Below are positions 3,479 through 33,239 of a stretch of DNA of 64,000 bases, piece after piece. Each line of letters starts with the position of its first letter. The first letter of the stretch is position 1. A program made the position numbers and the translations under genes. This DNA comes from Sphingomonas sp. IW22 (GTDB taxonomy: Bacteria > Pseudomonadota > Alphaproteobacteria > Sphingomonadales > Sphingomonadaceae), in assembly GCF_041321155.1 (NCBI RefSeq), contig NZ_JBGGWB010000001.1, forward strand, positions 2,295,649-2,359,648, in the 5' to 3' direction. The notes beneath the pieces were generated by a model. The model searched no databases. It worked only from the letters and a program-made list of their open reading frames with translations, and was not told the DNA's origin.

Positions 3479-4458
3479 TGTGGCACCTCGACATGTCCGC
3501 CGAAGCCGAACCGCATCGCCGAGAGGAGCTTGTCGCCGAAGGTCGTGTCGACCCGGCTGCGGTAGCGCGCGAACAGCGCCGCGGAGAGGACGTAGGCGGG
3601 GACCGCTTCCTCCATTGCCGCCTCAATCGTCCAGTGACCCTCGCCCGAATCCGCGACTTGGCCGGAGAATTGCTCAAGCATCTGGTCTTTCGCGAGCGCC
3701 GCGGCCGACAAGTCGAGCAGCCAGGATGAAATGACGCTACCGCGGCGCCAGACTTCGGCGATGTCGGTGAGGTTGAGATCGAAGCGCTCGTCTTCCGGTA
3801 GTTTGTAGGAGGATTTGCCCTTCAGGATGTCGAACCCCTCAGCATAGGCCTGCATCAGGCCATATTCGATGCCGTTGTGGACCATCTTGACGAAGTGGCC
3901 CGAACCCGCGGGACCGGTGTGTATATAGCCTTTTTCGGCGCGTGGGTCCTCGTTGGGGTCGCCGCGCTCCGGCGTGCGTGGGATCGTGCCCTGGCCTGGT
4001 GCCAGTGCCTCGAAGAGGGGATCAAGGCTGTCGAGAGTCGCGACATCGCCGCCGATCATCATGCAATAGCCGCGCTCGAGGCCCCACACACCGCCTGAGG
4101 TGCCCACATCGACATAGTGGAGTCCTTTCATCGCGCACAGCTTCGCCCGGCGGATGTCGTCCTTGTAAAAGCTGTTGCCGCCGTCGATGATGATGTCGCC
4201 TGGAGCGGCCAAGCCCATCAGTGTCGCGATCGTGCTCTCCGTAGGCGGCCCCGCCGGCAGCATAACCCAGAAGATTCGCGGGCTCTCGAGCTTGTCGGCG
4301 ACCTCCTCAAGCGAGGCGGCGGCGGTTGCGCCTTCGCTCGCCAGCTTTTCCACCGCCGGAGCGTTCCGATCGAAGGCGACGATCTCGTGACCGCCGCGCA
4401 TCAGCCGGCGCGCTATATTGGCTCCCATCCTGCCCAGGCCGATCATCGCGAGACGCAT
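3475..4458 (-). CDS. gnd: 6-phosphogluconate dehydrogenase, decarboxylating, short form
   Basis: 327 residues against about 470 for the E. coli type, so it belongs to the short bacterial class, often NAD-preferring. It converts 6-phosphogluconate to ribulose 5-phosphate with release of CO2. Seen: the N-terminal Rossmann motif [25 protein letters not shown] near residue 95, a TSGGVWG motif near 122 and the catalytic-region motif [15 protein letters not shown] near 185. It sits between tal-pgi (11 bp upstream) and zwf (4 bp overlap), which gives the operon both oxidative dehydrogenases of the pathway. Confidence 0.95.
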
Positions 4459-7277: not shown

Positions 7278-9364
7278 CTGTTCTTCTCGATCAGGTCGCG
7301 CGCCACGGCGCAGATATTGTCGACGTTGAAGCCGTATTTCTCCTGCAGCTTGGCAAGCGGGGCGGAGGCGCCAAACGTCTTCATCGTGATCGTGCCGCCA
7401 TCATGGCCGACATAGCGATCCCACCCCATGGAACCGGCCTGCTCCACCGCGAGGCGCGCGCGCACCGCATTGGGTAACACCGTCTCACGATAGGCATGGT
7501 CCTGCTTCTCGAACAGGTACCAGCTCGGCAGCGATACCACGCGGGACTTAAGCCCCTCGGCGACCAGCTTCTCGTGCGCGGCGACCACCATCGGCAGCTC
7601 GCTGCCGGTGCCGATCAAAATCACGTCGGGATCGCCGTCCTCCACATCCGCGAGGATATAGCCGCCCCGCTCCAGCCCGTTGGCGGACGCATATTTCTCG
7701 CGGTCGAGCGTCTGGATCGCCTGGCGGGAGAAAATCAGCGCGGTCGGTTCGCGGGTATGTGATAGCGCGACTTTCCACGCCATCGCCACCTCGTTGGCAT
7801 CGCCCGGCCGGATTGTGTCGAGCCCCGGGATCGCCCGCAGCGTTGCCAGATGCTCGATCGGCTGGTGGGTCGGCCCATCCTCGCCCACGCCGATGCTGTC
7901 GTGGGTGAAAACGAACACCACCGGCAATTCCATGATCGCCGCCAGCCGGATCGGCGCGCGCATATAATCGGCGAAGACCAGGAAGGTGCCGGTGTACGAA
8001 CGCAGGTAACGCAGCGCCATGCCGTTCGCGATCGATCCCATCGCATGTTCGCGCACGCCGAAATGCATGTTGCGGCCGGAATAATCGTCTCGCTCAAAGG
8101 TGCCCGCACCCTGGAAGGTGAGGTTCGTCTTGGTCGAGGGGGCGAGATCGGCCGAGCCGCCGATCAGCAGCGGTATACGCGGGGCGATGGCGTTGAGGAC
8201 CGTGCCACCGCTGTCGCGCGAGGCAAGGCCCTTGGGATCGGCCGGGAAGCTCGGGATGTCGGAATCCCAGCCATCCGGCAGCTTGCCCTGGAGCAGTAGG
8301 GCCAATTCGGCGGCTTCGGCGGGGAAGCTCTCGCGGTAGCGGGCGAACATCGCCTCCCACGCCTCGCGCGCCGGCTTGCCCCGGCTGGACACGGCGGCGT
8401 TGAAGTCCTCCGCCACGCCATCCGGCACGAAGAACTGCGCATCCTCCGGCCAGCCATAGGCTCGCTTGGTCGCGCGGACATTCTCCACGCCCAGCGGCTC
8501 GCCGTGCGCCTTCTCGCTGCCGGCCCTGGGGCTGCCCCAGCCGATGACCGAATTGACGACGATGAAGGTCGGCCGGTCCTCCGTCGCGCGGAATGTCTTC
8601 AGTGCCTCCGCGAAGACGGCGGTGTCGTTCGCGTCGTCGACGTGGATGACGTTCCAGCCATAGCCCTCGAACCGCTGGCCGACATCTTCGGTGAAGGCGA
8701 GCTTGGTCGATCCCTCGATCGAGATGTGGTTGTTGTCGTAGATCCAGCACAGGTTGGAGAGCGCGAGGTGGCCGGCGACTGACGCTGCCTCGCCCGAAAC
8801 GCCTTCCATCATGTCGCCATCGCCGCACAGCACATAGATGTCGTGATCGAATAGGTCGAAGCCGTCGCGATTGAAGCGGGAGGCGAGCACACGCTCGGCA
8901 ATCGCCATGCCGACCGAATTGCCACAACCCTGACCGAGCGGGCCGGTAGTCGTTTCGACCCCGCTGGTCATGCGATACTCGGGATGGCCAGGGGTCTTCG
9001 ATCCCAATTGCCGGAACTGCTTGATGTCGTCGAGACTGACCGCGGGCTTACCCGTCAGCTTTCCGTCAGCATCGATCTCCTTCACCCCCGCCAGATGCAG
9101 TACGGCATAGAGCAGCATCGAGGCGTGGCCGACCGAAAGAAGGAAGCAATCGCGGTTCGGCCAATTTGGGGTGTCCGGATCATAGCGCATGAAGTCTCGC
9201 CACAGCGTATAGACCACCGGCGCGAGCCCCATCGGCGTGCCTGGATGGCCCGAATTGGCCTTCTGCACGGCATCCATCGCCAGCGTGCGGATGGTGTCGA
9301 TCGCGAGTCTTTCCCTCGATCCGTCCTCATGCGATGGCTGTGCCGACGCCGTTGTACCGGGCAT
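7274..9364 (-). CDS. tkt: transketolase
   Basis: 696 residues from the ATG at 9364; GAGGAGG lies just upstream, although the spacing is short, and a longer frame to 9415 lacks such a site. It is a thiamine-diphosphate enzyme that moves two-carbon units between ketoses and aldoses. Seen: SGHPGTPMGLAP near residue 40, the ThDP-binding stretch GDGDMMEGVSGEA near 160 with a downstream NN, HDSIGVGEDGPTHQP near 470 and a final transketolase C-terminal domain. It is the first gene of the pentose-phosphate operon; an FNR-type site lies about 106 bp upstream of this start. Confidence 0.95.
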   Translation of the reverse strand: MPGTTASAQPSHEDGSRERLAIDTIRTLAMDAVQKANSGHPGTPMGLAPVVYTLWRDFMRYDPDTPNWPNRDCFLLSVGHASMLLYAVLHLAGVKEIDADGKLTGKPAVSLDDIKQFRQLGSKTPGHPEYRMTSGVETTTGPLGQGCGNSVGMAIAERVLASRFNRDGFDLFDHDIYVLCGDGDMMEGVSGEAASVAGHLALSNLCWIYDNNHISIEGSTKLAFTEDVGQRFEGYGWNVIHVDDANDTAVFAEALKTFRATEDRPTFIVVNSVIGWGSPRAGSEKAHGEPLGVENVRATKRAYGWPEDAQFFVPDGVAEDFNAAVSSRGKPAREAWEAMFARYRESFPAEAAELALLLQGKLPDGWDSDIPSFPADPKGLASRDSGGTVLNAIAPRIPLLIGGSADLAPSTKTNLTFQGAGTFERDDYSGRNMHFGVREHAMGSIANGMALRYLRSYTGTFLVFADYMRAPIRLAAIMELPVVFVFTHDSIGVGEDGPTHQPIEHLATLRAIPGLDTIRPGDANEVAMAWKVALSHTREPTALIFSRQAIQTLDREKYASANGLERGGYILADVEDGDPDVILIGTGSELPMVVAAHEKLVAEGLKSRVVSLPSWYLFEKQDHAYRETVLPNAVRARLAVEQAGSMGWDRYVGHDGGTITMKTFGASAPLAKLQEKYGFNVDNICAVARDLIEKNR

Positions 9365-9469
9365 ATACCTCCTCGCGATCCCTTTGTTCGACGCACGTGC
9401 ACAGCACGACTCCATCCGAAGGACGCTCGCTGCGCCTGCCGAAGATTGGCGTGGCGACAGGTCGCGTCA

Positions 9470-9483
9470 TTGACGCAGATCAA
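9470..9483. promoter_or_regulatory. FNR/FixK-type operator upstream of tkt operon
   Basis: TTGACGCAGATCAA is an inverted repeat with the FNR-family layout TTGA(T/C)-N4-(A/G)TCAA. The flanking bases are shared with copies at 15373 and 20120 (core GCGTCATTGACGCAGATC). It lies about 106 bp upstream of the tkt start codon. Seen: the sequence and its repetition. Inferred: activation under low oxygen by the FNR-like protein at 20676-21374. Confidence 0.75.
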
Positions 9484-9607
9484 AGCGTGACATTGCGGGC
9501 GAGGCAACGGGTGAACAAGCTGCCGCACACCATCGGATGGCCGACCGACAATGCAGCTGCTACACCGCGCACGATACCAGGCGCTTCGTCCGCGACATCT
9601 TGCTCAC

Positions 9608-9844
9608 ACGGACCACGCCCGTCGAAAGCCCGCAGAGAAACGGCCATTGCTGGGGCTTTCGTCCGCACGCTCAAGCGTGGCTACGCCCAGGTCATCCTGC
9701 GTCCCGGCGTCGCCGGCGTCATCGGGCGGCTGCCCGCCTGGCTCGATCACTGCAATCGCGGGCATTCGCATCGCGCACTCGCCTACCGGGCGCTTCGCGA
9801 GTTTATCGAACGCTCGATCGGAGAGAACCTGTCCGGCCTTTAGG
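9608..9844 (+). pseudogene. IS3-family transposase C-terminal remnant
   Basis: The final stretch reads AFVRTLKRGYAQV, LPAWLDHCNRGHSHRALAYR and ALREFIERS, which match the C-terminal end of IS3-group integrase-type transposases (family AFVRTFKRDYV, HYNEVHPHKALGYRSPREF). The preceding VESPQRNG lies in another frame, so there is at least one frameshift. The catalytic D, D and most of the fold are missing. The scrap lies between the tkt promoter and the GH130 gene and marks an old insertion or deletion at the operon boundary. Confidence 0.7.
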
Positions 9845-9940
9845 GGAGAACAACAGTGAGCTGTCACGAATGATTTGATGCGGTGGAAGGCTCCGCGCAT
9901 CAACGTAGCCGTGCAATGGATCGAGATCAGGTGAAGCCGC

Positions 9941-11230
9941 CTACTCCATGACACTTAACAGGTTGTCGATTGAGGCCGTAGCAAAGGCTGTAAAGCTATC
10001 AGCTACCGCATATGGCAGGAGCATCGTCCGACCCTGGACGATCGAACCACAGCTATAGACGACGTTGGGCACGTACCCGTCCCGTTCATGCGGACTGGGG
10101 GCTAGGACCGGCCGCGGCGTCCGCGCAAGCAGTTTTGATGGGTCATCCTTGTCGAGCAGGCATGCGCCAATGCAATAGTTGCGCACCGTCCCGACGCCGT
10201 GCACCATGACTAGCCAGCCTTCGGCGATCTCGATCGGCGACCCGCAGTTGCCCATCTGGACGAACTCCCAAGGGAATTGCGGCGCGATGATTTTCGCGCC
10301 GCCTTCCCAGTGGAGTATGTCGTCAGAATAGTGCAGCCAGATGTTTTTGTTATCCTGGCGTCCGAGCATTGCGTAATTGCCCGCGATACGCCGGGGGAAC
10401 AGTGCCATTCCCTTCCCTCTGGCCGCTTCGCCGGTCAGAACGCGCATATCAAACGACTTGAAATCGGTGCTGCTCAGCAATTCCGAGAGCACCTCGGCAC
10501 CGCTGAACGCAGTGTAAGTTCCGTGATAGATTATGCTGCCATCATCGTCGCAGAAGCGGACGAGGCGCATATCCTCGATACCTTGGCGCTGGCTCGGGAG
10601 CACCGGAAAAAGCACGATCTCCGATATCGTTCGACTGCCCGCGCAACACAGGCGCACTGCCACGTCCCCCCCCTTCGCACAGGTCTCGATGAGTGGCGGC
10701 ACCGATGTGGGGCTGGGATCGTCGACTACGAGTTCGCCGCCCGGTGTCCAAGTGCCCGTGCGGAATGTCACCGACGACACATGTCCCTCGCCGATGCCTC
10801 GCAGCGACATCACGAAACGGATGGTGCCCTCAGGGAGACCAGACTGGTCGGGATGGAGCACCACGCTCGGGTTGAACAAGGCCGCAGCCTCATAGGCATA
10901 TTCTTCGCTGCAGTAGGCCCCGATCAACCGCCGCTGCTCGGCGTTGATACGATCGACGCCCTCAATCCGGCCGGCGATCTCGTCGAACCGGCGAAGCAGC
11001 ATCGCATCGACGTCGCGGTGATTCTCGTCCAGTGACAGGGTGACGCCTTCCAGCTGGCGCGCCAACTCAGCCTCGTCGAGCGCCACGATCAGGTCGACAG
11101 TCTCCTGGGTGCGGGACGTGCCGGCGTCGAAACCTTTGGGATAGCCCGGCTCGAACGGCCGGACGACGGTGCGCGATGGATCGGGGCGAAGCACGCGATC
11201 GTAGAAGTTGAGCTTTGCACGTTCGGTCAT
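9941..11230 (-). CDS. GH130-family glycoside phosphorylase/hydrolase
   Basis: 429 residues. The family's five-bladed propeller pattern is recognisable: FNPSVVLHPDQ, the MGNCGSPIEIAEGWLVMVHGVG stretch in the second half, and the C-terminal RDGYVPNVVYSCG. GH130 enzymes split beta-1,2- or beta-1,4-mannosidic bonds, commonly by phosphorolysis that yields mannose 1-phosphate. There is no signal peptide, so it acts in the cytoplasm. Its ATG at 11230 overlaps the preceding stop as ATGA, and AAGGA lies upstream. With the GT4 gene it may make and recycle a mannose-containing glycan. Substrate specificity is not readable. A paralogue is cut at the left edge of the window. Confidence 0.85.
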   Translation of the reverse strand: MTERAKLNFYDRVLRPDPSRTVVRPFEPGYPKGFDAGTSRTQETVDLIVALDEAELARQLEGVTLSLDENHRDVDAMLLRRFDEIAGRIEGVDRINAEQRRLIGAYCSEEYAYEAAALFNPSVVLHPDQSGLPEGTIRFVMSLRGIGEGHVSSVTFRTGTWTPGGELVVDDPSPTSVPPLIETCAKGGDVAVRLCCAGSRTISEIVLFPVLPSQRQGIEDMRLVRFCDDDGSIIYHGTYTAFSGAEVLSELLSSTDFKSFDMRVLTGEAARGKGMALFPRRIAGNYAMLGRQDNKNIWLHYSDDILHWEGGAKIIAPQFPWEFVQMGNCGSPIEIAEGWLVMVHGVGTVRNYCIGACLLDKDDPSKLLARTPRPVLAPSPHERDGYVPNVVYSCGSIVQGRTMLLPYAVADSFTAFATASIDNLLSVME

Positions 11231-11727
11231 ACTAGGTCCTTGTTGTCAAAACAGAAATGCCAATCGAGACAGCCGCTTGCGGATGACCTTGTGGATGACG
11301 TCTGATTGACTAACGCTGCGGTCCGGACGCGTTGACCGCGCAAGGGATCGGCCACTTCCAGCGCCAATATGTCAACGCCTGAACCAAAGCGCGTCGCGAC
11401 CAGATTGCGCGGCGAAACGGTTTGCGTCGGGCGGATGAACGCAGGCGCGGTGGTGATCCCCACGAGCATCTCATGCATGAGTTTGAACATGCCATCATCG
11501 TCGGCGTACGGTAGACTTTTTCGATGAAGGTGGGCCGCTACGAAACCGGCAGACGCACGGATGAGCCACAAATCTCCGCTACGGCGGCTTTCACGGCGAC
11601 TTGCGCGACCTCTGAATTGTGCTCGCGCCTGCTTGGCTTGGTATTGAAGGCCGGCTTGCCTAACCCGGCCTGACGGCACCCCCAAACCGCTCAGGCCTGC
11701 AATGGATGCAGGAGGTCGAGAATTCAT
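11227..11727 (-). CDS. hypothetical protein between GT4 and GH130 genes
   Basis: 166 residues, not recognised. Its start overlaps the stop of the glycosyltransferase gene and its stop overlaps the start of the GH130 gene, each as ATGA, which favours a translated frame. Against this, the first 50 residues are rich in Arg, Gly, Ser and Gln and look like non-coding translation, and no strong ribosome-binding site is seen. The middle part (LMHEMLVGITTAPAF and ALEVADPLRGQRV) is more protein-like. No membrane segment or catalytic motif. Either a small coupled protein or a decayed gene. Confidence 0.4.
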   Translation of the reverse strand: MNSRPPASIAGLSGLGVPSGRVRQAGLQYQAKQARAQFRGRASRRESRRSGDLWLIRASAGFVAAHLHRKSLPYADDDGMFKLMHEMLVGITTAPAFIRPTQTVSPRNLVATRFGSGVDILALEVADPLRGQRVRTAALVNQTSSTRSSASGCLDWHFCFDNKDLV

Positions 11728-14096
11728 ATCGCCTTTGCGACCATGGTACCCGGAAGCACGCTCGCGCCGCTGTCTTGGCGCGCAGAAATGGCATGGCCCG
11801 CATCGACAGCAGCAGGTTTTAGCGGCGTGACAAACTGATGATCGTTTGCGAGTAGCATGGCGGTCAGCGCCGCAAGGTACGCAAGGGTCGATTCCGCGCC
11901 TTGATTGGCGTTCCGCCGATCAGGGTGGAGGCCGTCAAAGCAGGCTCCCGCAGCGGCATCGGCGACGGGGATGCGCAGGTCATTTTCTCCGAGAAACCAG
12001 CTGAATGCCCGCCGAGCTTCCTGCCTCCAGCGATGATCTCCACTGACATTCGCCGCGATAAGGCAAGCGCTGACTGCCGAACACGCTTCTAATGGCTGCT
12101 GATCGAACGGCTCTGGATGGCGACGATCGGTGCCGAAGGTGTCGGTGCCAATGGGCCGGAAGTGGCCCGCCTCGGCCGTCTGCAACTTCATCAGCCAACG
12201 CAGCGTGTCGAGACCGACCTGGATATGGCGAGAATTGGATCGCGCATGGCCAGTCACCAGGAGGGCTTCGCATAGCTTGGCGTTGTCGTAGCCCAGCCGA
12301 TCCTCGAACCAGTTCCAGTCCGGAGCAGCGGCGTCCGACCAGCGCTGAAACAAACGATCGGCGAGGTTGTCCCTCAGCCGCTCGAATCCGCGATGGCCTG
12401 GAAAACGTCCCAGAAAACCTTCGATCCCAAGGAGACCGTATGCCCATGCGCGCGGCGAGGAAGTATCATTCAAGGGCGGCGCGAAGTCCAGCAATCGCGC
12501 AGCGGCCCAGCTATCGAGACGACGCGGATCTTGGTGCCGTGCAACGGCACCGAGTGCCCAGACCGCCCGGCCATGGGCATCGTCGGCACCAGGTTCATCG
12601 AGCCATTCGCGATCGAACCCCATGAAATTATGGACCCTGCTTTCGGCGGGACACCAGGCATGTTCGACGAACGCGGCGTAGGTGAGAGCGAGCCGGTCCT
12701 CCTGTGAAGAAAGGGGTCGCAGTCGGGCAATTTCGGCCATGAGCAGCAGCGCGCGTGCATTGTCGTCGAGGCAGTATCCGTGTCTGCGGTCGGGAACTGC
12801 AAACTGAGTATGCTGGATCAATCCGACGTTATCGGTCAATGCATCAAGGTGGACCGTCGCGAGCGGAGGCAATTCATTCCTTCTTGCTCCCCCTGGAGCG
12901 AAGGGAATGACCTCAGCCTTGGGGGACCGTCTTTCAAGCCTTACGTCGGAAAAGACCTCCAGATACTGTCGTGCGACATTCGACCACGTCATCATCCTTC
13001 CCAGCGCGTAAGCTTGCGTCCGGATTGCGCTGCGGGATGTATCGTCGTCTATCAACTGGCTGACCGCGCCAGCCAGCGCGTTCGGTGCGCCGAACGGTAC
13101 GAGGACGCCGCAATTGTCGGCGAGGAGTTCCTGCGCATACCAGAAGGGCGTCGAGACCACAGCCTTACCCAACGCTACGGCATAGGCCAGCGTGCCCGAG
13201 ACGATCTGGGCCTCATTCGGATAGGGGGACAGATAGATGTCGCAAGCCGCAAGATGGTCCAGAAGTTCGTCCAGTGAGAGGTATCGGTCGACAAAGTGAA
13301 TGTGGTCAGTCACTCCCAGCTCGTCTGCGAGAGCGACGAGACTCGCGCGGTAGCGCTCGCCCTCGTGACGGCGAAGGCTCGGATGAGTCGCACCAACGAT
13401 CATGTAGAGGATCTTGGGGTGGTCGCGAACCAGCGCGGGCATTGCGCCGATCGCTGTTTCGATCCCTTTGCCGGGCCCGAGCAAACCGAAAGTCATCAGC
13501 ACTGTTCGATCCGCAAGCCCCAGATCGTGTTGCGCCATCGCCGGGTCGAGAAAAGGGCGATCAGGGACGCCGTGCGGAATCACGCTGATCCGCTCGGACG
13601 GAACGCCATAGACGTCCTCCAGTATCTGTCGGCCCTTGTCCGCCATGGCAACCAACCGCGCGGAGCGCCCAATAATTTCATCCATAACCTGGCGTTGGGC
13701 GGGGTTGGGCGCCGCCAGGATAGTGTGCAGTGTTGTGACCACGGGCGTCTTTAGCCCGCGCAGCAGTTCGAGCACATTTTCCCCCGCTTCACCGCCGAAT
13801 ATCCCGAACTCGTGCTGCAGGGAGACGACCTCGATGTCGGCGACGTTCAGGAAATCAGCGGCGACTGCGAAGGATGCAGGATCGGAGTGATCGATCTCAA
13901 GCGGTACAAAGTCGGGATAGGCATAGCTCCCGCCACTATCGGTGACGGCGACCGTGATGCACGACAGGTTCGGATCGTGGCTGGTGAGCGCGCGTTGCAT
14001 GTCATCGGTGAAAGTCGCGATGCCGCAATGCCGCGGGACGCAGGTTCCGATCAAAGCAATACGCTTTAGAGCAGGGACCGTGCGTGCGTCGTTCAT
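11724..14096 (-). CDS. GT4-family glycosyltransferase with C-terminal alpha-rich domain
   Basis: 790 residues. Residues 1 to about 390 form a GT-B glycosyltransferase: RIALIGTCVPRHCGIATFT at the start, VVSLQHEFGIFGG near 95, VIPHGVPDRP near 175, FGLLGPGKGIE near 205 and YLSPYPNEAQIVSGTLAYA near 290, the nucleotide-sugar-binding region. The remaining 400 residues are helical with repeated Trp/His-rich stretches (DDNARALLLMAEIARL, FNWFEDRLGYDNAKL-like) and resemble an alpha/alpha-toroid glycosidase or cyclase fold. It heads the operon with the GH130 gene, so synthesis and phosphorolysis of a mannose-type glycan are plausible. Donor and acceptor are unknown. Confidence 0.85.
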   Translation of the reverse strand: MNDARTVPALKRIALIGTCVPRHCGIATFTDDMQRALTSHDPNLSCITVAVTDSGGSYAYPDFVPLEIDHSDPASFAVAADFLNVADIEVVSLQHEFGIFGGEAGENVLELLRGLKTPVVTTLHTILAAPNPAQRQVMDEIIGRSARLVAMADKGRQILEDVYGVPSERISVIPHGVPDRPFLDPAMAQHDLGLADRTVLMTFGLLGPGKGIETAIGAMPALVRDHPKILYMIVGATHPSLRRHEGERYRASLVALADELGVTDHIHFVDRYLSLDELLDHLAACDIYLSPYPNEAQIVSGTLAYAVALGKAVVSTPFWYAQELLADNCGVLVPFGAPNALAGAVSQLIDDDTSRSAIRTQAYALGRMMTWSNVARQYLEVFSDVRLERRSPKAEVIPFAPGGARRNELPPLATVHLDALTDNVGLIQHTQFAVPDRRHGYCLDDNARALLLMAEIARLRPLSSQEDRLALTYAAFVEHAWCPAESRVHNFMGFDREWLDEPGADDAHGRAVWALGAVARHQDPRRLDSWAAARLLDFAPPLNDTSSPRAWAYGLLGIEGFLGRFPGHRGFERLRDNLADRLFQRWSDAAAPDWNWFEDRLGYDNAKLCEALLVTGHARSNSRHIQVGLDTLRWLMKLQTAEAGHFRPIGTDTFGTDRRHPEPFDQQPLEACSAVSACLIAANVSGDHRWRQEARRAFSWFLGENDLRIPVADAAAGACFDGLHPDRRNANQGAESTLAYLAALTAMLLANDHQFVTPLKPAAVDAGHAISARQDSGASVLPGTMVAKAI

Positions 14097-14449
14097 TGGA
14101 GTACCTCAAACGTGTAAATTCTCTTGGAAAATGCGTGCTGAGTACTGAGCTCAGCGCGGGCTCGCAGCTCGTTGGGCGGGTCGTCGTTCGACAGTTCATC
14201 TCTCCAATGGTTGATAAACGAACCCAGGTCAGACTACCCTAACGGACAACCGTGAGCCCTTGTCGCGGCTGGACCATAGTCCAGAGTCAAGGATGTCTTT
14301 CAGCTCATTCACGGTGAACTTCGGCAGGCGTGGTGGAAGAGACATCATGAACGGGTACGGCTGTGCCGCGCACGAACTGGCCGGGTCCGCCTCACATGTA
14401 AGTGGCGAACCAAACGGGCGCCCCACAAGCGTCCAGGTGCTTGGCGCCA
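14097..14449. other. intergenic region holding the GT4 promoter
   Basis: 353 bp between the start of the GT4 gene (minus strand) and the end of the methyltransferase gene (also minus). Apart from the palindrome at 14269-14284 no gene is recognised. A half-site-like TTGAT occurs near 14211 but lacks a matching second half. Confidence 0.5.
14269..14284. promoter_or_regulatory. palindrome CTGGAC-CATA-GTCCAG
   Basis: Perfect 6-bp arms around CATA, about 175 bp upstream of the GT4 start. A longer relative, CCTTGGAC-TATG-GTCCAAGG, lies upstream of the FNR-like regulator gene at 20550-20569. The shared GGAC-N4-GTCC core at two promoters suggests a common dimeric regulator. The regulator is unknown. 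Confidence 0.5.
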
Positions 14450-15133
14450 TCAGCCGGCGTCTTCTGGTTTTACCCGCCCGGCCGCCCTATCGGCGCGGCG
14501 CCAAACGCGAGGAACGAAGGGAGGTACCTGCGCCGCATATCGGCGGTAGTCTTCTCCGAACTCGCGAAGCGCGTCCCGCTCCTCATGGCGTGCGAGACGA
14601 ACGTACATCACGACCAGCACTGGAAACATGCCGAGTGTAAGCAGAGTCGGCCACTGCAGCAGGAAGCCGAACATCACCAGAATGAACCCGACATATTGCG
14701 GATGCCGAATCCGCGAATAGATGCCGCCTGTAGCTAGCTTTTGCTCTTGCTGGGCGGTGTGCAACGCCTTCCATGCCACCGAGATGAGCATAAAACCCCC
14801 GCCGATGAGCACGAAGCTCGCAATGTGGAATGGGCCGAAATGAGGATTGGTCTTCCAGCCGAACATCATCTCAAGCAAATGTCCGGCATCGTGTGAGAGC
14901 CAGTTGACCCCCGGAAACCGGGATTGGAGCCAGCCGGAGAGAAGGTAGATCGTCAGCGGAAAACCGTACATTTCCGCGAACAAGGCCACGAGGAAGGCGC
15001 TGAATACGCCGAAGCTTCGCCAGTCACGCGGCGTATGTGGCTTGAAAAAGCTGAAGGCGAAGACAATGAAGACGGCGGCATTCACTGCCGCGACCCCCCA
15101 CAAGCCATAGGCGGACACATCGCTCTGGGTCAT
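14450..15133 (-). CDS. membrane methyltransferase of the isoprenylcysteine carboxyl methyltransferase/PEMT type
   Basis: 227 residues with about five hydrophobic segments. The C-terminal half carries GGIYSRIRHPQYVGFILVM and then RLARHEERDALREFGEDYRRY, the conserved SAM-binding region of the ICMT/PEMT-like family (RHPxY and EExxLxxxFGxxY). Such bacterial proteins methylate lipid or thiol acceptors at the inner membrane, but the substrate is generally unknown. The gene stands alone on the minus strand and converges with nothing recognisable. The C-terminal tail after PPFVPR is Arg-rich. Confidence 0.8.
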   Translation of the reverse strand: MTQSDVSAYGLWGVAAVNAAVFIVFAFSFFKPHTPRDWRSFGVFSAFLVALFAEMYGFPLTIYLLSGWLQSRFPGVNWLSHDAGHLLEMMFGWKTNPHFGPFHIASFVLIGGGFMLISVAWKALHTAQQEQKLATGGIYSRIRHPQYVGFILVMFGFLLQWPTLLTLGMFPVLVVMYVRLARHEERDALREFGEDYRRYAAQVPPFVPRVWRRADRAAGRVKPEDAG

Positions 15134-15464
15134 GGCCAGGCAGCTCCCCGCCCGCTACCTGACTGGGGAGCGCGGCCGCGCGCCGGGCCAGGGAATGCTT
15201 GTCTGAGCAGGGGGCGTCGCGGTTGGTTAAGCCACGCACTTTGCCGAGAGCCTGTTGCCGACGAACGCACGGCGCTATGTCTCCTCTCCGCTCTGTCGCC
15301 CAGCTCATCGACGATCATTTTCTCATCCTGCTTTATGTCTACGGATCATTGGGTGCCACCCGAGACGCGTCATTGACGCAGATCAAAGCTGCACTCCGCA
15401 CTCAAGGCGACAAGTGTTGCGGGTCGCGGCACGCTCACTGCCACGCCGCTCAGGACTGTACTGC
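15134..15464. other. intergenic promoter region between methyltransferase and pta
   Basis: 331 bp. It contains the FNR-type site at 15373-15386; no protein-coding segment is recognised. The methyltransferase (minus) and pta (plus) are divergent, so the region must hold both promoters. Confidence 0.55.
15373..15386. promoter_or_regulatory. FNR/FixK-type operator upstream of pta-ackA
   Basis: TTGACGCAGATCAA, identical to the copies at 9470 and 20120. It ends 78 bp before the pta start codon, a distance that allows a class II position near -41.5 with a leader of about 35 nt. Direct observation: sequence and position. Inference: anaerobic activation of the acetate pathway. Confidence 0.78.
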
Positions 15465-16805
15465 ATGCAAGCGCTCGAGAATCGCCCCTATGATGAGCTG
15501 GCCATCGGCGAAACTGCCGCGCTTACGCGCGAGCTGGAGCGTCTTGGCCCCTCAGGCCTCGAGGGTGACACCATCGAGCTGCAGCCCGGCGCGAGCGCCT
15601 GGGCCGGCCTGCTCCTCTCGCACCTCATCGAAACGCAGCTGCCGGGGCTCGGCACGATCATCCTCACTCAGACGCTGACCTATGGGCGCCCGGATACGCC
15701 AAGCGGCGCGATCACGGCCACCCTCGCGGTCCGCGAAAAGCGCAGTGACGGTCATGTCGTGCTCGATTTTCAATGCTCGGATCCATCGGGAGCAATCCTG
15801 GTGCATGGCTGGGCCGAGGTCGTCGCCCCGCGCGAAAAGCTGCGGCGCGCGGCGAGCGTGTCCTCTTCCGTAAAGCTCCACACCCCGGGTGCCCGCTATT
15901 GGGCGGCGCTGGAGAAGGCGCAAGGCCTGCCCCCGATCAGAACCGCGGTCGTGCATTCAGTTGACGAAGCTTCGCTTCGCGGGGCGGTCGAAGCGGCTGA
16001 TGCTGGGCTGATCGTGCCAATCCTGGTCGGCCCCGCCGCCCGGATCGCGCAAGCGGCAGAGGCGGCTGGGCTTCCCCTGGGCGCATTCGAGCTGATCGAC
16101 GTTCCCCATAGTCATGCTGCTGCGGAAAAGTCCGTGGCACTGGTCCGCGAAGGGCAGGTGGAGGCCCTCATGAAGGGGGCGCTCCATACCGACGAGCTCA
16201 TGGGCGCGGTCGTGGCCAGTGGCAGCGGTCTCAAGACCGAGCGGCGGATAAGCCACATCTTCGCGCTGGATGTCCCGAGCTACCACAAGCCGCTGTTCAT
16301 CACCGATGCTGCGATCAACATCTACCCGACGCTCGACGACAAGCGAGACATTGTCCAGAACGCAATCGAACTGTGTGTCGCGCTCGGGATCGACCCACCT
16401 AAGGTCGCCATCCTCTCAGCGACAGAGATGGTCCATGCCAAGATCAGTTCCACGGTCGAGGCGGCCGCGCTGTGCAAGATGGCCGAGCGCGGGCAGATTA
16501 CGGGCGGCTTGCTGGACGGGCCGCTCGCGTTCGACAACGCCATCTCAAAGGAGGCAGCGGCAGCAAAGCACATCGCATCGTCCGTGGCCGGCGATGCCGA
16601 TATTCTTCTCGCGCCAGACTTGGAGTCGGGCAATATGATCGCCAAGCAGCTGATCTATCTCGCCGGGGCCGATGCCGCGGGCCTGGTCCTCGGCGCCCGC
16701 GTGCCGATCATGCTGACCAGCCGTGCCGACGGCGCGTTGGCACGGGTCGCGTCCTGCGCGCTGGCGCAGATCTTCATTCGCAGCCGCTTGTCGCGTGCCC
16801 TATGA
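15465..16805 (+). CDS. pta: MaoC-like domain fused to phosphate acetyl/butyryltransferase
   Basis: 446 residues from the ATG at 15465; the open frame extends further upstream but through the FNR-site region. Residues 1-140 form a MaoC/hot-dog-like domain (LVHGWAEVVAPREK at its end). The rest is the PTA_PTB fold (EGQVEALMKGALHTDELM, RRISHIFALDVP, KVAILSATEMVH, ADILLAPDLESGNMIAKQL). This two-domain form is usually annotated as bifunctional enoyl-CoA hydratase/phosphate acetyltransferase. It makes acetyl phosphate from acetyl-CoA, or the reverse. Its stop overlaps the ackA ATG as ATGA, so acetyl phosphate passes to a coupled kinase that yields ATP. Confidence 0.9.
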   Translation: MQALENRPYDELAIGETAALTRELERLGPSGLEGDTIELQPGASAWAGLLLSHLIETQLPGLGTIILTQTLTYGRPDTPSGAITATLAVREKRSDGHVVLDFQCSDPSGAILVHGWAEVVAPREKLRRAASVSSSVKLHTPGARYWAALEKAQGLPPIRTAVVHSVDEASLRGAVEAADAGLIVPILVGPAARIAQAAEAAGLPLGAFELIDVPHSHAAAEKSVALVREGQVEALMKGALHTDELMGAVVASGSGLKTERRISHIFALDVPSYHKPLFITDAAINIYPTLDDKRDIVQNAIELCVALGIDPPKVAILSATEMVHAKISSTVEAAALCKMAERGQITGGLLDGPLAFDNAISKEAAAAKHIASSVAGDADILLAPDLESGNMIAKQLIYLAGADAAGLVLGARVPIMLTSRADGALARVASCALAQIFIRSRLSRAL

Positions 16806-18019
16806 CATCCTCCATCCTGGTCCTCAATGTCGGCTCGTCTACGCTGAAGTTCGCGCTCTTTGACGGTGCCGGACTTGATCTCTTGTGTCGGGGTGTAATC
16901 GAAGATCGGGGCGCTGGATTCCCGGTCAGTACAAGCGGCCCCTATGCCCCCGCCTTCGCCGCTCTGCCGGGAGCTGCAGGGGCAACCCTGCCGGCCCGGA
17001 TCGAATGGCTACTGAGGACCGCCGCAACCAAGCTTGTCGACAGGCCGCTGGCGGCCGTCGGACACCGAGTGGTCCACGGCGGCACAACGTTTGCGGAACC
17101 GGCCATCGTGAATGCAGCGATGCTCGACGAACTGGGGCGGCTCATTCCGCTTGCGCCGGCTCACCAGCCGCACAACATCGCTGCGATCGCCGCCGTAACG
17201 GCGATGGCGCCGGACTTGCCCCAGATTGCCTGCTTCGACACGGCGTTTCATCGCACCCAACCGCGGGTGGCGCAGCTCTATCCGCTGCCGCGGGCACTCA
17301 GCGACGAGGGATTGCTGCGGTTCGGCTTTCACGGACTCTCTTACGAGCATGTCGCACAGGCACTTGTCGAGGTGGCCCCTGATCACGCCAATGGCCGCGT
17401 GATCGCGGCGCATCTCGGGCACGGTGCGAGCCTCTGCGCGATGCGGAATCGACAGAGCGTCGCCACGACGATGGGGTTCACCTCTCTCGAGGGGCTGATG
17501 ATGGGAACCCGTTCGGGGTCGATTGATCCCGGGCTAATCCTCTATCTGATACGCGACCGCGGCATGACGGTAGAAGCCGTTGGCGACCTTTTGAACAGCC
17601 GCTCCGGTCTTCTCGGCGTGTCAGGGCTGAGCGATGATGTTCGCATCTTGGCGCAGAGCCCGGATCCCTCCGCCGCCGAGGCGCTCGACCTGTTCGCGTA
17701 CCGGGCAGCGCGCGAGATTGGCTCGTTGATGGTGGCGGTCGGCGGCTTGGACCTCCTCGTATTTACCGGGGGCATCGGCGAAAACTCTGCGTCCCTTCGC
17801 GCCGCCATCTGCGAACGGCTGCGTTGGGCTGACGTTATCCTTGATCCCGCCCGAAATGAGCAGGGCCTGCCCCGCATCAGCGCGGAGGCAGTACGCGTGA
17901 AGGTCTTCGTCATACCGGCCAATGAGGAGCTTGTGATAGCGACCGCGACGCGAGAGTTGACGGCGGGCCTGGCAGGGCGCAGCGGCGGCAAGCGGCGCTC
18001 GCCGCCTTCGGTCCGATGA
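16802..18019 (+). CDS. ackA: acetate kinase
   Basis: 405 residues from the ATG at 16802 that overlaps the pta stop; about the normal length. Signature motifs are present: VLNVGSSTLKFALF at the start (ASKHA phosphate 1 motif), VGHRVVHGG near 80, FHGLSYEHV near 175, GHGASLCA near 205, TSLEGLMMGTRSGSIDPG near 225 and LVFTGGIGENSA near 320. It transfers phosphate from acetyl phosphate to ADP. With Pta it provides ATP without respiration, which fits the FNR-type site upstream. The C-terminus is Arg/Pro-rich beyond VIPANEELVIA. Confidence 0.95.
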   Translation: MTSSILVLNVGSSTLKFALFDGAGLDLLCRGVIEDRGAGFPVSTSGPYAPAFAALPGAAGATLPARIEWLLRTAATKLVDRPLAAVGHRVVHGGTTFAEPAIVNAAMLDELGRLIPLAPAHQPHNIAAIAAVTAMAPDLPQIACFDTAFHRTQPRVAQLYPLPRALSDEGLLRFGFHGLSYEHVAQALVEVAPDHANGRVIAAHLGHGASLCAMRNRQSVATTMGFTSLEGLMMGTRSGSIDPGLILYLIRDRGMTVEAVGDLLNSRSGLLGVSGLSDDVRILAQSPDPSAAEALDLFAYRAAREIGSLMVAVGGLDLLVFTGGIGENSASLRAAICERLRWADVILDPARNEQGLPRISAEAVRVKVFVIPANEELVIATATRELTAGLAGRSGGKRRSPPSVR

Positions 18020-18027
18020 GCTTCGCA

Positions 18028-18462
18028 TCAGCGTTCTTCGGCATCCTCCTCGAAAAGCCTGATCCGGTTGATGACGGAGACGAAGAACGCGGTCGACCAT
18101 CCAAGCAGGATGATTCCGTTGGCACCTTCGATGGCGCCGACCAACCGCCAGGCTCTCGGGAGAACGACGTCGCCGTATCCGAGAGTGGAGTAGGTCGTGG
18201 TCGAGAAATAGAGCGCGTCGTCGAAGGTCGGGAGCGCCCCGACCGCCGCGTACAGAATCGCGTAGGTCCAGATCTCGATGGTGTGGAGGGCGAACAGCCC
18301 GAACGCGGCGCCAAAGATGACAATGAGCTGGTGAAGCCGAGTGCGACGGACCTGAAGCCGGCGCTGGTGTCGGCGCATGAGCGCGACGAGCAATCCAAGT
18401 CCAACCAGGTGCATGACGACGGTCAGCGCGACCATGATGCTGGCGATGACAAGCTGCGGCAC
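18028..18462 (-). CDS. two-TM potassium channel family protein
   Basis: 144 residues. N-terminal hydrophobic helix (about residues 5-28), a basic stretch RRHQRRLQVRRTR, a second helix near 45-70, then a pore with the selectivity-filter sequence TTYSTLGYGDV near residue 88 and a final helix at 108-130. This is the ion-channel (Ion_trans_2) layout of K+ channels without a regulatory C-terminal domain. It ends 8 bp from the convergent ackA stop. A perfect FNR-like palindrome lies about 150 bp upstream, so channel expression may follow oxygen status. Confidence 0.88.
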   Translation of the reverse strand: MPQLVIASIMVALTVVMHLVGLGLLVALMRRHQRRLQVRRTRLHQLIVIFGAAFGLFALHTIEIWTYAILYAAVGALPTFDDALYFSTTTYSTLGYGDVVLPRAWRLVGAIEGANGIILLGWSTAFFVSVINRIRLFEEDAEER

Positions 18463-18612
18463 AATATCTCCGTGTCTGAGAGGTCCGCCGGGCGTTCGAT
18501 CCTCGACGACCTGCTAGAGCGTTGGCAGGAAGTAAAAATCAATCATCGCCCGTGGGCTCTAGGTCGCGGGCGTGTCGTTCAGCTCGCATTGATCATTCCT
18601 CGCCCATGCACT

Positions 18613-18626
18613 TTGACGTGCGTCAA
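18613..18626. promoter_or_regulatory. perfect palindrome TTGACGTGCGTCAA (FNR/CRP-family type)
   Basis: TTGAC-GTGC-GTCAA with perfect half-sites, about 150 bp upstream of the potassium-channel start on the minus strand. The half-sites equal the left half of the three TTGACGCAGATCAA sites. The distance is long for direct activation unless the leader is long. Confidence 0.55.
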
Positions 18627-18692
18627 TGTGTCTCTAGCGCCGGCGGCTCTACCGTCTCGGCAGGTAGGAGCCCAGTGTGTCTGATCAATCGC

Positions 18693-18923
18693 TCAAGGAA
18701 AACAGCATCGACGGCTCTTGTTGATTGCGACGCTGGTTAGCCAAGCGCGCAACGGGCGGTTCCCGTCATAACCGCCGAGATGCTGGAAAGCGGCCAAAAA
18801 GCAGTCCTGGGTCAGATCGAGCGCCTCTTCGGGGTCCCCGATATGACCGCGGATCATCCGATAGATCGGCTCTCGATGACGACGCATGATCTCCGCAAAG
18901 GCGGCTCCCTCTGCTCCTCTCAC
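18693..18923 (-). pseudogene. truncated ECF sigma factor (region 2 only)
   Basis: 76 residues from a GTG at 18923. The protein RHREPIYRMIRGHIGDPEEALDLTQDCFLAAFQHL followed by LRAWLTSVAINKSRR matches sigma-70 region 2 of ECF sigma factors (core binding and -10 recognition). It stops right after the point where region 2 normally leads through a linker to region 4, which is absent. So it is a 3'-truncated gene, probably non-functional, next to a decayed recombinase. Confidence 0.7.
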
Positions 18924-18959
18924 CTGGAATATGCGTCATAATCGATCATCCAAAATCGG

Positions 18960-19620
18960 GATGCGACGCGATGAACCTGGCAGGGCGACCAGCCAATGAG
19001 GGCTGGCGCCGTCTTCGGCGAAGGAACGCAAGTCCGCGTCGTGGCACTTGCCTTTGGTTCGCCATCCTCGCGGCGGGTTCAAGCGTGCCACCGTATTCAG
19101 ATGGGCGGCGATGCCGGTTGACCGGAACGAGTAGGTGCCACTCGCCGTCTGATCCCGCCCGCGCCCGCACGTCGGTGACCATCTGGAACGCATTGGCCTG
19201 GGGCAGGGGGTGTCGCCTCGTCCCTAAGTCCCGCGCGCGATCGTGCGGAACAGCGGCCCCATACGATCGTCGCGCAAGCCGACTGGGGTCGTCAGTCGAT
19301 CGCGTCGAGCAGCAGCCGCGCCCCGTCGAGTGCCAGCACGGGGTCTTGCCGCGCCTGACGTTATGCGCCCGCCCGCACCGACGCTGCCGGGTTCGCCGGC
19401 ACCACCTGGCCGGTCACCAATCAATCGAACAGGTGCCGCACGCCGGCGAGCGCTGCTTGACCGTGGGCGCGCTCACCTTTCGCGCTAGCGCCTCGATCCA
19501 GGCACCGCCGCGCAGCGGCTGGACGTCCGCGCTCGACGCCACCGCGCGCCTCGCGCCAAGCCAGAAACTCGCCCGCCGCGCGCGCATCAGCGCGGCGCAG
19601 ACACTGCTCATCGCTCAGGT
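18960..19620 (-). pseudogene. decayed tyrosine recombinase (phage-type integrase)
   Basis: Fragments in different minus-strand frames follow the order of a XerC/integrase-type recombinase. Near 19440-19510: EALARKVSAPTVKQR, then after a frameshift GVRHLFDW, a stop, and LVTGQVVPANPAASVR. Near 19240-19340: GKTPVLALDGARLLLDAID. Near 19080-19140: the SFRSTGIAAHLN stretch of the active-site region, then after another shift GGTLEPAARMANQ. Stops and frameshifts make it non-functional and the catalytic residues are incomplete. It marks an old integration event beside the truncated sigma gene. Confidence 0.7.
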
Positions 19621-19642
19621 TTAGCCGTCCCCGCCGACTTTC

Positions 19643-19996
19643 TCACATATCGTGTTCCATAGGCATCGGCTTCATCGCGTCGGGTTTGGGCTTGGCGTCG
19701 ACGGCCCCGGTACCGCGCTTCTTCTCCGCGCGACACTTGGCACCCATTTCGGCCATCTTTTTCTGGCTCATGCCCATTTTCTGCATGCCAGCTTTCGACA
19801 TACACGACGAGGCAGGCATGTTGCCCTTCATCTTGCCGTCCTTCATCCCCGGCATCATGTTGTCATGGCCCATCATGCCGCCGCCCATCGGCTTCGCCGG
19901 TGGTGCCGCGCGGTCTTGAGCAAGTGCGATGCCCGAACTTAGCAGCAGTGCTGAGAAGATTAGGCCCATCTGGGCGCGTGATATCGAAACGTTCAT
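19643..19996 (-). CDS. Met-rich secreted/periplasmic small protein
   Basis: 117 residues. A signal peptide is clear: basic start, hydrophobic core LIFSALLLSSGIALA and cleavage after ALA near residue 26. The mature part is rich in Met, Lys and Gly (PMGGGMMGHDNMMPGMKDG, MSKAGMQKMGMSQKKMAEM) with two cysteines, and ends MPMEHDM. Met/His clusters of this kind often bind copper or silver in the periplasm; that is inference. No family is recognised with certainty. The FNR-type site at 20120 lies 124 bp upstream of the start, on the divergent side. Confidence 0.7.
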   Translation of the reverse strand: MNVSISRAQMGLIFSALLLSSGIALAQDRAAPPAKPMGGGMMGHDNMMPGMKDGKMKGNMPASSCMSKAGMQKMGMSQKKMAEMGAKCRAEKKRGTGAVDAKPKPDAMKPMPMEHDM

Positions 19997-20119
19997 GTAA
20001 AATCCTTTTCATCGAAGTCAAAGCGTGGGCTCAATTAATCGGTAAGTTTTTTCCGCTCGCCCAGGAAATCAGGTTAAGCGTACTGCTGCTAGCCCTGCGC
20101 GCGGTCGCAGGTCGCGTCA

Positions 20120-20133
20120 TTGACGCAGATCAA
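20120..20133. promoter_or_regulatory. FNR/FixK-type operator in the 20 kb intergenic region
   Basis: TTGACGCAGATCAA, third identical copy; the flanks match the 9470 copy over about 40 bp with few changes. Possible targets are the Met-rich gene on the minus strand (start 124 bp away) or a plus-strand transcript that would cover the 44-codon frame at 20191-20325 and end at the terminator at 20327-20364. Confidence 0.75.
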
Positions 20134-20190
20134 AGCGGTACATTGCAGGCGAAGCGACAAGGCGGGCGCTCGCGGCAGGTATCAAGCCAC

Positions 20191-20325
20191 ATGAATGCGT
20201 ACGAATCGGGCGAACGGAAAAGGCGAAAACGCCCCGGTCCTGACCGTGCGGCGGGTCGGTACCTAGAGCAAAATAGGTCGGCCTACGGCGCTACCGCCGT
20301 TCGTCACGGTGATGGCGTCACCTGA
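20191..20325 (+). CDS. candidate 44-residue basic small protein, or part of a short RNA
   Basis: ATG at 20191 to TGA at 20323-20325, 44 codons, with no similarity recognised. The protein is Arg/Lys-rich at its start (SGERKRRKRPGPDRAAGRY). It begins about 58 bp after the FNR-type site and its stop codon lies 1 bp before the stem of a strong terminator, an arrangement expected of a real small gene. The ribosome-binding site is weak (AGGT 10 nt upstream). The alternative is a non-coding RNA of about 180 nt over the same stretch. Confidence 0.4.
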   Translation: MNAYESGERKRRKRPGPDRAAGRYLEQNRSAYGATAVRHGDGVT

Positions 20326-20326
20326 C

Positions 20327-20364
20327 CCCGGCCGCCAGCGGTGGCGGCCGGGTACCTTTTTCCT
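20327..20364 (+). terminator. rho-independent terminator
   Basis: CCCGGCCGCCA and TGGCGGCCGGG form an 11-bp GC-rich perfect stem around a 4-nt loop (20327-20352), followed by TACC and a run of five T. It reads on the plus strand, so a transcript that starts near the FNR-type site at 20120 would end here. Confidence 0.75.
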
Positions 20365-20675
20365 TAAGGATCGCGAAAGTTCGGGCGCGGCGTCGATGGC
20401 CTGGCCGCTGGCAGCCAAACTCGGATGGCTGCCGTGTACAATGGGCTTCTATAGGAGCCAAAGAGATCGTGAAATCCCGCCTCTCAGCGTCACCCCGCGC
20501 TGTGGTCTACAGCGTTTACTGCGGAATTTCTCCGGAATTTCTGGGTTGACCTTGGACTATGGTCCAAGGGCTATCGGTCTCGCGTGGACCATGATCAGTC
20601 AATCATCGGCAACTTCGCCCCAGGCTTGGATGCCCTGGCAGACCAGAGCAGTGATTCGGGCGTGGGTAACGAGGT
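20365..20675. other. upstream region of the FNR-like gene
   Basis: 311 bp without a recognised gene. It holds the palindrome at 20550-20569 and must contain the promoter of the regulator gene. An in-frame TAA at 20667-20669 excludes a start further upstream for the regulator. Confidence 0.5.
20550..20569. promoter_or_regulatory. palindrome CCTTGGAC-TATG-GTCCAAGG
   Basis: Perfect 8-bp arms around TATG, 107 bp before the GTG start of the FNR-like gene. Its inner core matches the palindrome upstream of the GT4 gene (14269-14284). A second, unrelated transcription factor may control both promoters. Confidence 0.6.
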
Positions 20676-21374
20676 GTGAGAGTAGCTTGTCCCGGCTGCG
20701 AAATACGTGATCGGGCGCTATGCGCCGGCCTCAGCGATGCGGAACTGGCGCCGCTCAGCGCCCTGAAGCGTCGACGACGTTTTGCAAAGGGGGAGCCCGT
20801 TATCTGGGCGGGCGACGAAAACATGATCTTCGCGAACGTCGTCTCGGGCGTTCTCAAGCTTAATGCCTCCACGGCGGATGGGCGTGAGCAGATTGTGGGC
20901 CTGATGTACCCAGCCGATTTCATCGGCAGACCTTACGCGTCCTCAACACGCTACAACGTGGTGGCGCTGACGGACGCTGAGCTGTGCGTGTTTTCACGAA
21001 AGCACTTCGAGCAGGCGCTCAGGACCTACGACAAGTTGAAGCGGTTGCTGCTCCAGCGCACGCTGGATGAGCTAGACCATAGCCGCGAGTGGATGCTCCT
21101 GCTCGGCCGCAAGACGGCGGAAGAGAAGGTGGCGAGCTTTCTCGTCCAGATGGCGCGCCGGATCGGCCGTGGCGGTTGCGCCCGGTCGCCGCTGGATGAG
21201 TTCGTCCTACCGCTCAGCCGGGCTCAGATCGCCGACGTGCTCGGACTTACGATCGAGACGGTCAGCCGACAGATGACAAGATTGAGAAGCGCCGGCGTCA
21301 TTGATCTGCCAACGACGCGCTCGATCAGGGTTTTGAACGAAATCGCGCTCTCGGCACGTGCGGAACAGGGCTAG
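20676..21374 (+). CDS. Crp/Fnr-family regulator with FNR-type Fe-S cysteines
   Basis: 232 residues from a GTG. The N-terminus has Cys5-X2-Cys8-X7-Cys16, and Cys104 lies in ELCVFSR, the set that carries a [4Fe-4S] cluster in FnrN/FnrL-type oxygen sensors. A cNMP-fold domain (about 20-120) and a dimer helix are followed by a helix-turn-helix (about 175-205) with IETVSRQ: Glu194, Ser197 and Arg198 correspond to the E-xx-SR residues by which FNR reads TTGA half-sites. This agrees with the three TTGACGCAGATCAA sites in the window. Predicted role: activator under low oxygen. The mechanism is inferred from family knowledge. Confidence 0.9.
   Translation: MRVACPGCEIRDRALCAGLSDAELAPLSALKRRRRFAKGEPVIWAGDENMIFANVVSGVLKLNASTADGREQIVGLMYPADFIGRPYASSTRYNVVALTDAELCVFSRKHFEQALRTYDKLKRLLLQRTLDELDHSREWMLLLGRKTAEEKVASFLVQMARRIGRGGCARSPLDEFVLPLSRAQIADVLGLTIETVSRQMTRLRSAGVIDLPTTRSIRVLNEIALSARAEQG

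Positions 21375-31252: not shown

Positions 31253-33239
<1,987 letters not shown>

Follow-up and report, generated by a model that had tools for sequence, protein, structure and literature searches.

Genes and FNR-type boxes of the island

The window analyzed here, a stretch of 64,000 nucleotides from Sphingomonas sp. IW22 (contig NZ_JBGGWB010000001.1, positions 2,295,649 to 2,359,648), carries pentose-phosphate and acetate genes together with FNR-type boxes and a gene for an FNR-type regulator. We consider it probable that these features form the right half of a low-oxygen island borne on a conjugative plasmid, with the low-oxygen switching predicted from the DNA sequence. Coordinates are positions in the window unless prefixed C1: or C4: (genome contigs of the same strain), and gene calls outside annotated records came from a simple custom caller. 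The minus strand holds zwf (glucose-6-phosphate dehydrogenase, 2048-3478), gnd (6-phosphogluconate dehydrogenase, 3475-4458), a bifunctional transaldolase/phosphoglucose isomerase gene (4470-7277; Pfam TAL_FSA and PGI), and the transketolase gene tkt (7274-9364; Pfam Transketolase_N, pyr, and C), whose start is placed as in its orthologue on plasmid pNXO2 of Sphingomonas sanxanigenens, with an ATG at 9415 also possible. On the plus strand are pta (15465-16805), of the bifunctional enoyl-CoA hydratase/phosphate acetyltransferase family (Pfam PTA_PTB; NCBIfam PRK08190, 586.9 bits against a cut-off of 282), and the acetate/propionate kinase gene ackA (16802-18019; Pfam; TIGR00016, 333.5 bits against a cut-off of 293.4). 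These profile matches bear out the claim of an earlier note on this DNA that pentose-phosphate and acetate/ATP genes are carried jointly.

The 14-mer TTGACGCAGATCAA occurs as an exact match, each time on the plus strand, at 9470-9483, 15373-15386, and 20120-20133, as had been noted before. The first copy lies 105 bp from the tkt start at 9364, the second 78 bp before the pta ATG, and the third ahead of a terminator-like stem. A fourth palindrome, TTGACGTGCGTCAA at 18613-18626 (plus strand), was correctly placed upstream of a K+ channel-like gene, at a distance of 150 bp; it departs slightly from the perfect palindrome described, since its 6-bp arms are perfect and its 2-bp centre is asymmetric. 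The pattern TTGAN6TCAA occurs four times in the window against 0.34 expected, and none of 100 shuffles held four or more. Genome-wide there are 26 occurrences against five for the reversed control pattern, and ten of the 26 cluster in the 40.9 kb of C1:2274890-2315781, which make up 1.02% of the genome. The binomial P for this, nominally 5.7e-14, is too good, since some of the sites are copies and not all are independent. Half of this palindrome-rich stretch lies to the left of the window. The sites are real as first described, and the putative regulon is about twice as large, including outside the window a phosphoketolase gene that has the same box and completes the pathway. The window shuffles, the genome control pattern, and the clustering rule out a chance origin of the three boxes. 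At each identical box, a 13-bp palindrome, GCGTCATTGACGC, extends into the left half (9464-9476, 15367-15379, and 20114-20126).

In the IW22 genome, palindromes of the same class adjoin a chromosomal fnr, cydA, cydB, and an OmpW-family gene, as well as a radical-SAM gene (hemN by resemblance) and ABC-transporter genes placed like cydCD (also by resemblance). The Sphingopyxis granuli Fnr box is given as TTGAc/t-N4-g/aTCAA, mostly centred at -41.5 (PMC7713065), and the three boxes fit it; compared with the consensus given for Alphaproteobacteria, TTGANCNNGATCAANG (PMC4999443), they have G for C at the sixth base and lack the final G. The boxes are present upstream of operons more often than by chance, as in an FNR regulon, and would be expected to bind such a regulator and to mediate activation.

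The same island is found in two relatives. Plasmid pNXO2, typed as conjugative, matches 94% of window positions 1-21700 at 93.8% identity and in the same gene order, and the fetched pNXO2 stretch holds eight palindromes, all common to the IW22 island. A contig of Sphingobium sp. CECT 9361 has the same ten palindromes. Aligning all ten IW22 island palindromes with their counterparts, which were located by the palindrome search itself, we found 0 of 140 box columns changed; the flanks changed in 175 of 2012 columns, of which 47 stem from one alignment break; eight sites were aligned in three copies and two sites in two (the two leftmost, against CECT 9361 only). The exact 14-mer occurs in 23 of 298 family genomes, with five copies in IW22, four in one genome whose contig matches pNXO2 by position, and at most two in any other. 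Among the 15 of 30 loci listed (plus-strand matches only; four of the 15 are from the island), it precedes HemN-like genes at two. An exact box at C4:153294 was considered as an island target and is probably due to chance, because the 1077-aa open frame around it belongs to the AcrB family.

The regulator gene, fnr (20676-21374, plus strand, GTG start), encodes a predicted FnrN/FnrL-type sensor. Its cysteines 5, 8, 16, and 104, in the pattern C-x2-C-x7-C plus one distal Cys, and its ETVSR recognition helix (E194-x2-S197-R198) agree with the residues first reported, and an Fe-S cluster is predicted. A third Cys shifted by two is described as a mark of the FnrN subgroup (PMC7713065). The protein is 98% identical to one pNXO2 protein, 76% to another, and 58% to the chromosomal FNR of IW22. 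Both CECT 9361 and pNXO2 carry two fnr or Crp/Fnr genes on the island, and the second paralogue is absent from the IW22 window; about 2.7 kb of CECT 9361 sequence that includes it is missing in IW22 at a junction at 18708-18715. In pNXO2, the annotated start of the Crp/Fnr gene NX02_RS29735 (32261-32932 of the fetched stretch) lies downstream of the CxxC motif, which is encoded by the open frame upstream.

From what is observed directly, namely the genes, the boxes with their clustering and conservation, and the residues of the regulator, we infer cluster binding, DNA binding, activation, promoter direction, and a metabolic gain, as follows. When oxygen falls, the FnrN/FnrL-type protein of the island, and probably also the chromosomal FNR, would hold an Fe-S cluster. 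The cluster-bearing regulator would then bind the TTGAN6TCAA boxes and turn on the island operons with phosphoketolase, pta-ackA, and tkt. Phosphoketolase, transaldolase, and transketolase would convert sugar phosphates to acetyl-phosphate, which may be used by AckA to yield acetate and ATP or by Pta to yield acetyl-CoA, giving ATP without NADH formation. Such a pathway makes acetyl-phosphate from sugar phosphates without reduction of NAD and gains its ATP through acetate kinase. Phosphoketolase, transaldolase, transketolase, and acetate kinase, present jointly on the island, are the set of a bifid-type phosphoketolase shunt; neither ribose-phosphate isomerase nor epimerase was seen among the island genes.

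Several further genes lie in and near the window. On the minus strand are genes for a GT4-family glycosyltransferase (11724-14096), an isoprenylcysteine-methyltransferase-like protein (14450-15133; Pfam PEMT/ICMT), and the K+ channel-like protein (18028-18462; Pfam Ion_trans_2), and the window also holds genes for a GH130 protein and a metal ATPase, and a CueR-like frame whose match to the model is confined to the C-terminal part. To the left of the window lie genes for a CopA-type multicopper oxidase, a cytochrome, an FAD oxidoreductase, a MerR-family regulator, the phosphoketolase with the same box, an oleate-hydratase-family protein, and a 6-phosphogluconolactonase-family protein. In the stretch C1:2277000-2296500, at its positions 4583-7942, genes for a multiheme cytochrome c, a protein with no Pfam match, and a large FAD/NAD/ferredoxin-type oxidoreductase stand in a row and may form an electron outlet. 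The island is flanked on the left by a TrwC-type relaxase and a coupling protein and on the right by TraG, TraN, TrbI, and TraC of an F-type conjugation system. Because conjugation genes stand on both flanks, the island is most readily seen as cargo carried by a conjugative element, and the sequence supports the earlier view of it as a mobile segment.

Promoter direction and the box at 20120

The hexamers lying 22 nt from each box, at the distance of a -10 element, indicate which way a promoter may face. At 9470, the hexamer is AACGGG on the plus side and AATCTT on the minus side, towards tkt; at 20120, it is GACAAG on the plus side (GGCAAG in pNXO2) and CAGGGC on the minus side. The spacing favours tkt at 9470, in keeping with the target proposed earlier, and the plus side at 20120, where the box faces the terminator-like stem about 200 nt downstream and not an obvious gene.

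A number of observations weigh against an oxygen-switched regulon of the island genes. Two of the boxes, at 15373 and at the phosphoketolase gene, lie between divergent genes. At 15373, the hexamer is GACAAG on the plus side, towards pta, and AATGAT, which resembles a -10 element more closely, on the minus side, and the spacing favours the divergent methyltransferase-like gene at least as much as pta; the earlier note had rightly placed this box before pta, and its target is not certain because it lies between the two genes (interval 15133-15465). At the phosphoketolase box, the hexamer is GAAAAG towards the gene and again the more -10-like AATGAT away from it, with a 1-nt change that shifts AATGAT in the other two copies, and the spacing favours the divergent merR at least as much as phosphoketolase. 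Both boxes may serve both sides. A sigma-70 scan gave one promoter-like site against 2.7 in shuffles, and none that favours promoters at the boxes. With a score of 242.1 bits, the regulator falls short of the cut-off of 300 set for the NCBIfam FnrL model, which we take to be of the Rhodobacter type (its short name ends in Rhodb), and for that reason we call the protein FnrN/FnrL-like rather than FnrL. Phosphoketolase genes occur at 17 loci in 15 of 385 genomes of the class, and a perfect box within 500 nt upstream is found only at the island copy; two more of the 17 loci have a palindrome elsewhere, one inside the gene and one about 1.5 kb upstream. The chromosomal phosphoketolase of IW22 lacks the box. 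A scan of the genome and of relatives with the perfect pattern yielded the clustering and the conservation in three copies described above. The distant tkt cassettes of Sphingobium sp. WTD-1 and Sphingomonas parapaucimobilis, each scanned over some 45 kb, held no perfect palindrome. We thus rejected the box as a general trait of alphaproteobacterial phosphoketolases (one of 17 loci has one) and of tkt cassettes (neither of the two looked at carries a perfect palindrome).

The box at 20120, facing a strong terminator, looks like a new feature. An intrinsic-terminator-like stem at 20327-20352 (plus strand), with 11 pairs of which ten are G-C, is followed by TACCTTTTTC and is the strongest of nine such sites found. 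A candidate short FNR-dependent transcript, a small RNA or attenuated leader, would span 20168-20362 on the plus strand, with a start placed by class II spacing. The box may drive this short regulatory RNA, ending near 20352, and not fnr or the small Met-rich protein gene; we regard this as a tentative possibility. The box and at least ten of the 11 stem pairs are kept in all three copies despite four 1-nt indels between box and stem that set pNXO2 apart, and it is because of the strong stem and these indels that a short non-coding transcript appears likelier than a gene downstream of the box. The hexamer on the plus side and the fold of the candidate transcript (z = -2.5) point in the same direction. 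Terminator-like sites are present at the chance number, however (nine against 9.0 expected), the hexamer differs in pNXO2, Rfam gave no match, the candidate transcript is found only in island copies, and an attenuated leader of fnr may equally well account for it. The Met-rich gene at 19643-19996 was also considered as a target of the box; it is possible, but the hexamer on its side is CAGGGC.

MerR-type operators and composite promoters

Upstream of fnr lies a MerR-type operator, TTGACCTTGGACTATGGTCCAAG, at 20546-20568 (plus strand), and a second one is found at 14268-14290 (minus strand; two mismatches to the pattern) upstream of the GT4 gene, with no adjoining FNR palindrome. Both operator sequences are common to promoters left of the window. 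MerR-family proteins use operators of this type between -35 and -10, with the dyad in a 19-20 bp spacer after the -35, and we liken the arrangement to CueR-type promoters; here the dyad CCTTGGAC-TATG-GTCCAAGG follows TTGACC, and the -10 is weak. With up to three mismatches, the strict operator pattern occurs at seven places genome-wide, five of them in the island, and the control pattern at none.

In four IW22 island promoters, a MerR-type operator comes exactly 10 bp after an FNR-type palindrome. These composite promoters precede the copA-type oxidase gene, the aldehyde/alcohol dehydrogenase genes, merR itself, and a small gene; three carry TTGACC and the dyad GGACTATRRTCC, and the fourth is degenerate (TTGGCT and TCG for TTGACC and TCC). 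The alcohol and aldehyde dehydrogenase genes behind one of them are intact in CECT 9361 (5231-7722 of its stretch) and interrupted and partly missing in IW22, where their remnants lie left of the window in C1:2277000-2296500. The pairing at a fixed 10 bp and the operator upstream of fnr look like new features.

A MerR input to fnr and to the four island promoters is a further step that these operators suggest. A MerR-family metal regulator might activate fnr from 20546 and act jointly with FNR at the composite promoters, in a circuit responding to metal and oxygen, which we hold to be possible without favouring it. The operator counts given above are in keeping with such a circuit, and so is the exact 10-bp gap, seen with a looser pattern within island stretches at four of six operators in IW22, four of six in CECT 9361, and two of four in the fetched pNXO2 stretch. 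The four composite palindromes keep both arms despite differing centres, and one operator starts 49 bp upstream of merR. Set against this, the palindrome centre lies near -54, neither -41.5 nor -61.5, and because this is not a standard FNR position, joint action of FNR and MerR is only a proposal. The four composite promoters look like copies of one block, one of them degenerate; the operators of fnr and GT4 lack a palindrome; the island MerR protein passes no NCBIfam metal-type cut-off; and a search of 84,980 species genomes for the composite pattern returned a single species, Sphingobium sp. CECT 9361, where it matched three times over two stretches.

Possible readers of the boxes and comparison with known systems

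The boxes may instead be real but read mainly by the chromosomal FNR, with the island regulator redundant, poorly translated, or decaying, so that the island would plug into a circuit of the host. We think this rather unlikely, although part of the evidence leans its way. The chromosomal FNR (C1:993010-993696) shares the ETVSR motif, boxes of the same class surround cydAB, and this protein could read every island box, and to that extent the island's own sensor, present as first described, is not necessarily the sole reader. The island fnr has a poor ribosome site, four residues precede the first Cys when translation begins at the GTG, and a stop codon is found a little way upstream; IW22 also lacks the second island fnr. 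On the other hand, the gene is an open frame, 98% identical in its protein to the pNXO2 copy, similarly short frames (232-236 codons) occur among its homologues, and both other copies of the island hold two fnr genes.

The preferred reading, a low-oxygen island with its own FNR-type regulator, can also be extended to a plasmid circuit joining metal and oxygen sensing. A MerR-type regulator would act on fnr through 20546, FNR and MerR would act together at the composite promoters with the 10-bp gap (copper oxidase, aldehyde/alcohol dehydrogenase, and merR), and FNR alone would control the phosphoketolase-acetate ATP pathway and the short RNA at 20168-20362. Taken as a whole, this extension is distinctly doubtful. 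That the identical boxes are a mere by-product of repeated-segment copying with no regulatory role is very improbable: the boxes at 9470, 15373, and 20120 have 24 identical bases in common, the phosphoketolase box has 22 bases in common with these three at 95%, and those at 9470 and 20120, with 45 bp in common at 93%, at least look like copies on that account, but the flanks of 15373 differ from the other two beyond 24 bp, none of the ten island boxes varies from copy to copy, and the remaining island palindromes differ in sequence.

If the preferred reading is true, a conjugative plasmid can hand a respiring soil bacterium an oxygen-switched route from sugar to ATP without NADH, plus copper genes possibly tied to the same switch. 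The island would be a compact test case for the spread of low-oxygen regulons with their own regulators, for the sharing of sites by a host and an imported FNR, and for the action of FNR and MerR-type proteins at one promoter. Its interest lies in the pairing of metal and oxygen inputs at promoters and in the portability of the whole circuit.

Control of phosphoketolase by FNR/FixK has been published before, and the IW22 island is a variant of FNR/FixK islands known in outline. FixK control of phosphoketolase has been predicted (PMC2908626), the phosphoketolase gene Rpal_1869 was 9.4-fold lower in a fixK mutant in one tabled condition and little changed in most others (PMC3050613), and microoxic induction has been described for bll2518 (PMC6515984). 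Our literature search returned no paper linking phosphoketolase and acetate kinase with FNR in Alphaproteobacteria, and none on phosphoketolase with transketolase/transaldolase on a Sphingomonas plasmid.

The low-oxygen-activated locus (lxa) of Burkholderia cenocepacia is comparable in that an aerobe raises the expression of a block of genes when oxygen is low (PMC6127331, PMC9104464). It differs in the six universal stress proteins described for it, whereas no such protein is present in the 41 features annotated for the pNXO2 stretch or in the Pfam results of the scanned island proteins. A pta-like stretch of one B. cenocepacia record, possibly but not necessarily lxa, holds a single palindrome in 40 kb.

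Parallels are also found on plasmids of other alphaproteobacteria, where five of seven phosphoketolase loci have palindromes above expectation (7, 6, 3, 7, and 2 against 0.07-0.55 by first-order Markov simulation) and two have none; this is not a rate, since the loci were chosen rather than random, six from the top of 208 records for genus spread and one (Phenylobacterium) from a pta match. In Rhizobium leguminosarum pSK01 and Bradyrhizobium pBs162S2a, phosphoketolase stands beside acetate kinase and a Crp/Fnr-family regulator, with clustered TTGAN6TCAA, and pSK01 shares metal ATPases and a multicopper oxidase with the IW22 island. Unlike the latter, these Rhizobiales loci carry universal stress proteins and have no zwf-gnd-tal/pgi-tkt block within their 22-kb stretches. 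Four Rhizobiales plasmid phosphoketolase loci, with three to seven FNR-type palindromes per 22 kb, universal stress proteins at all four, and metal ATPases at three, may represent a wider class of low-oxygen islands.

The regulatory parts themselves resemble those described for Sphingopyxis granuli TFA, which has fnrN and fixK: the box TTGAc/t-N4-g/aTCAA, the third Cys shifted by two, and the Glu, Ser, and Arg recognition residues (PMC7713065). The Sphingopyxis fnrN has been used there to complement an E. coli fnr mutant. The regulon reported there comprises genes for respiration and anaerobic growth, whereas the IW22 set is carried by a conjugative element alongside genes for phosphoketolase, the pentose-phosphate pathway, acetate, and copper.

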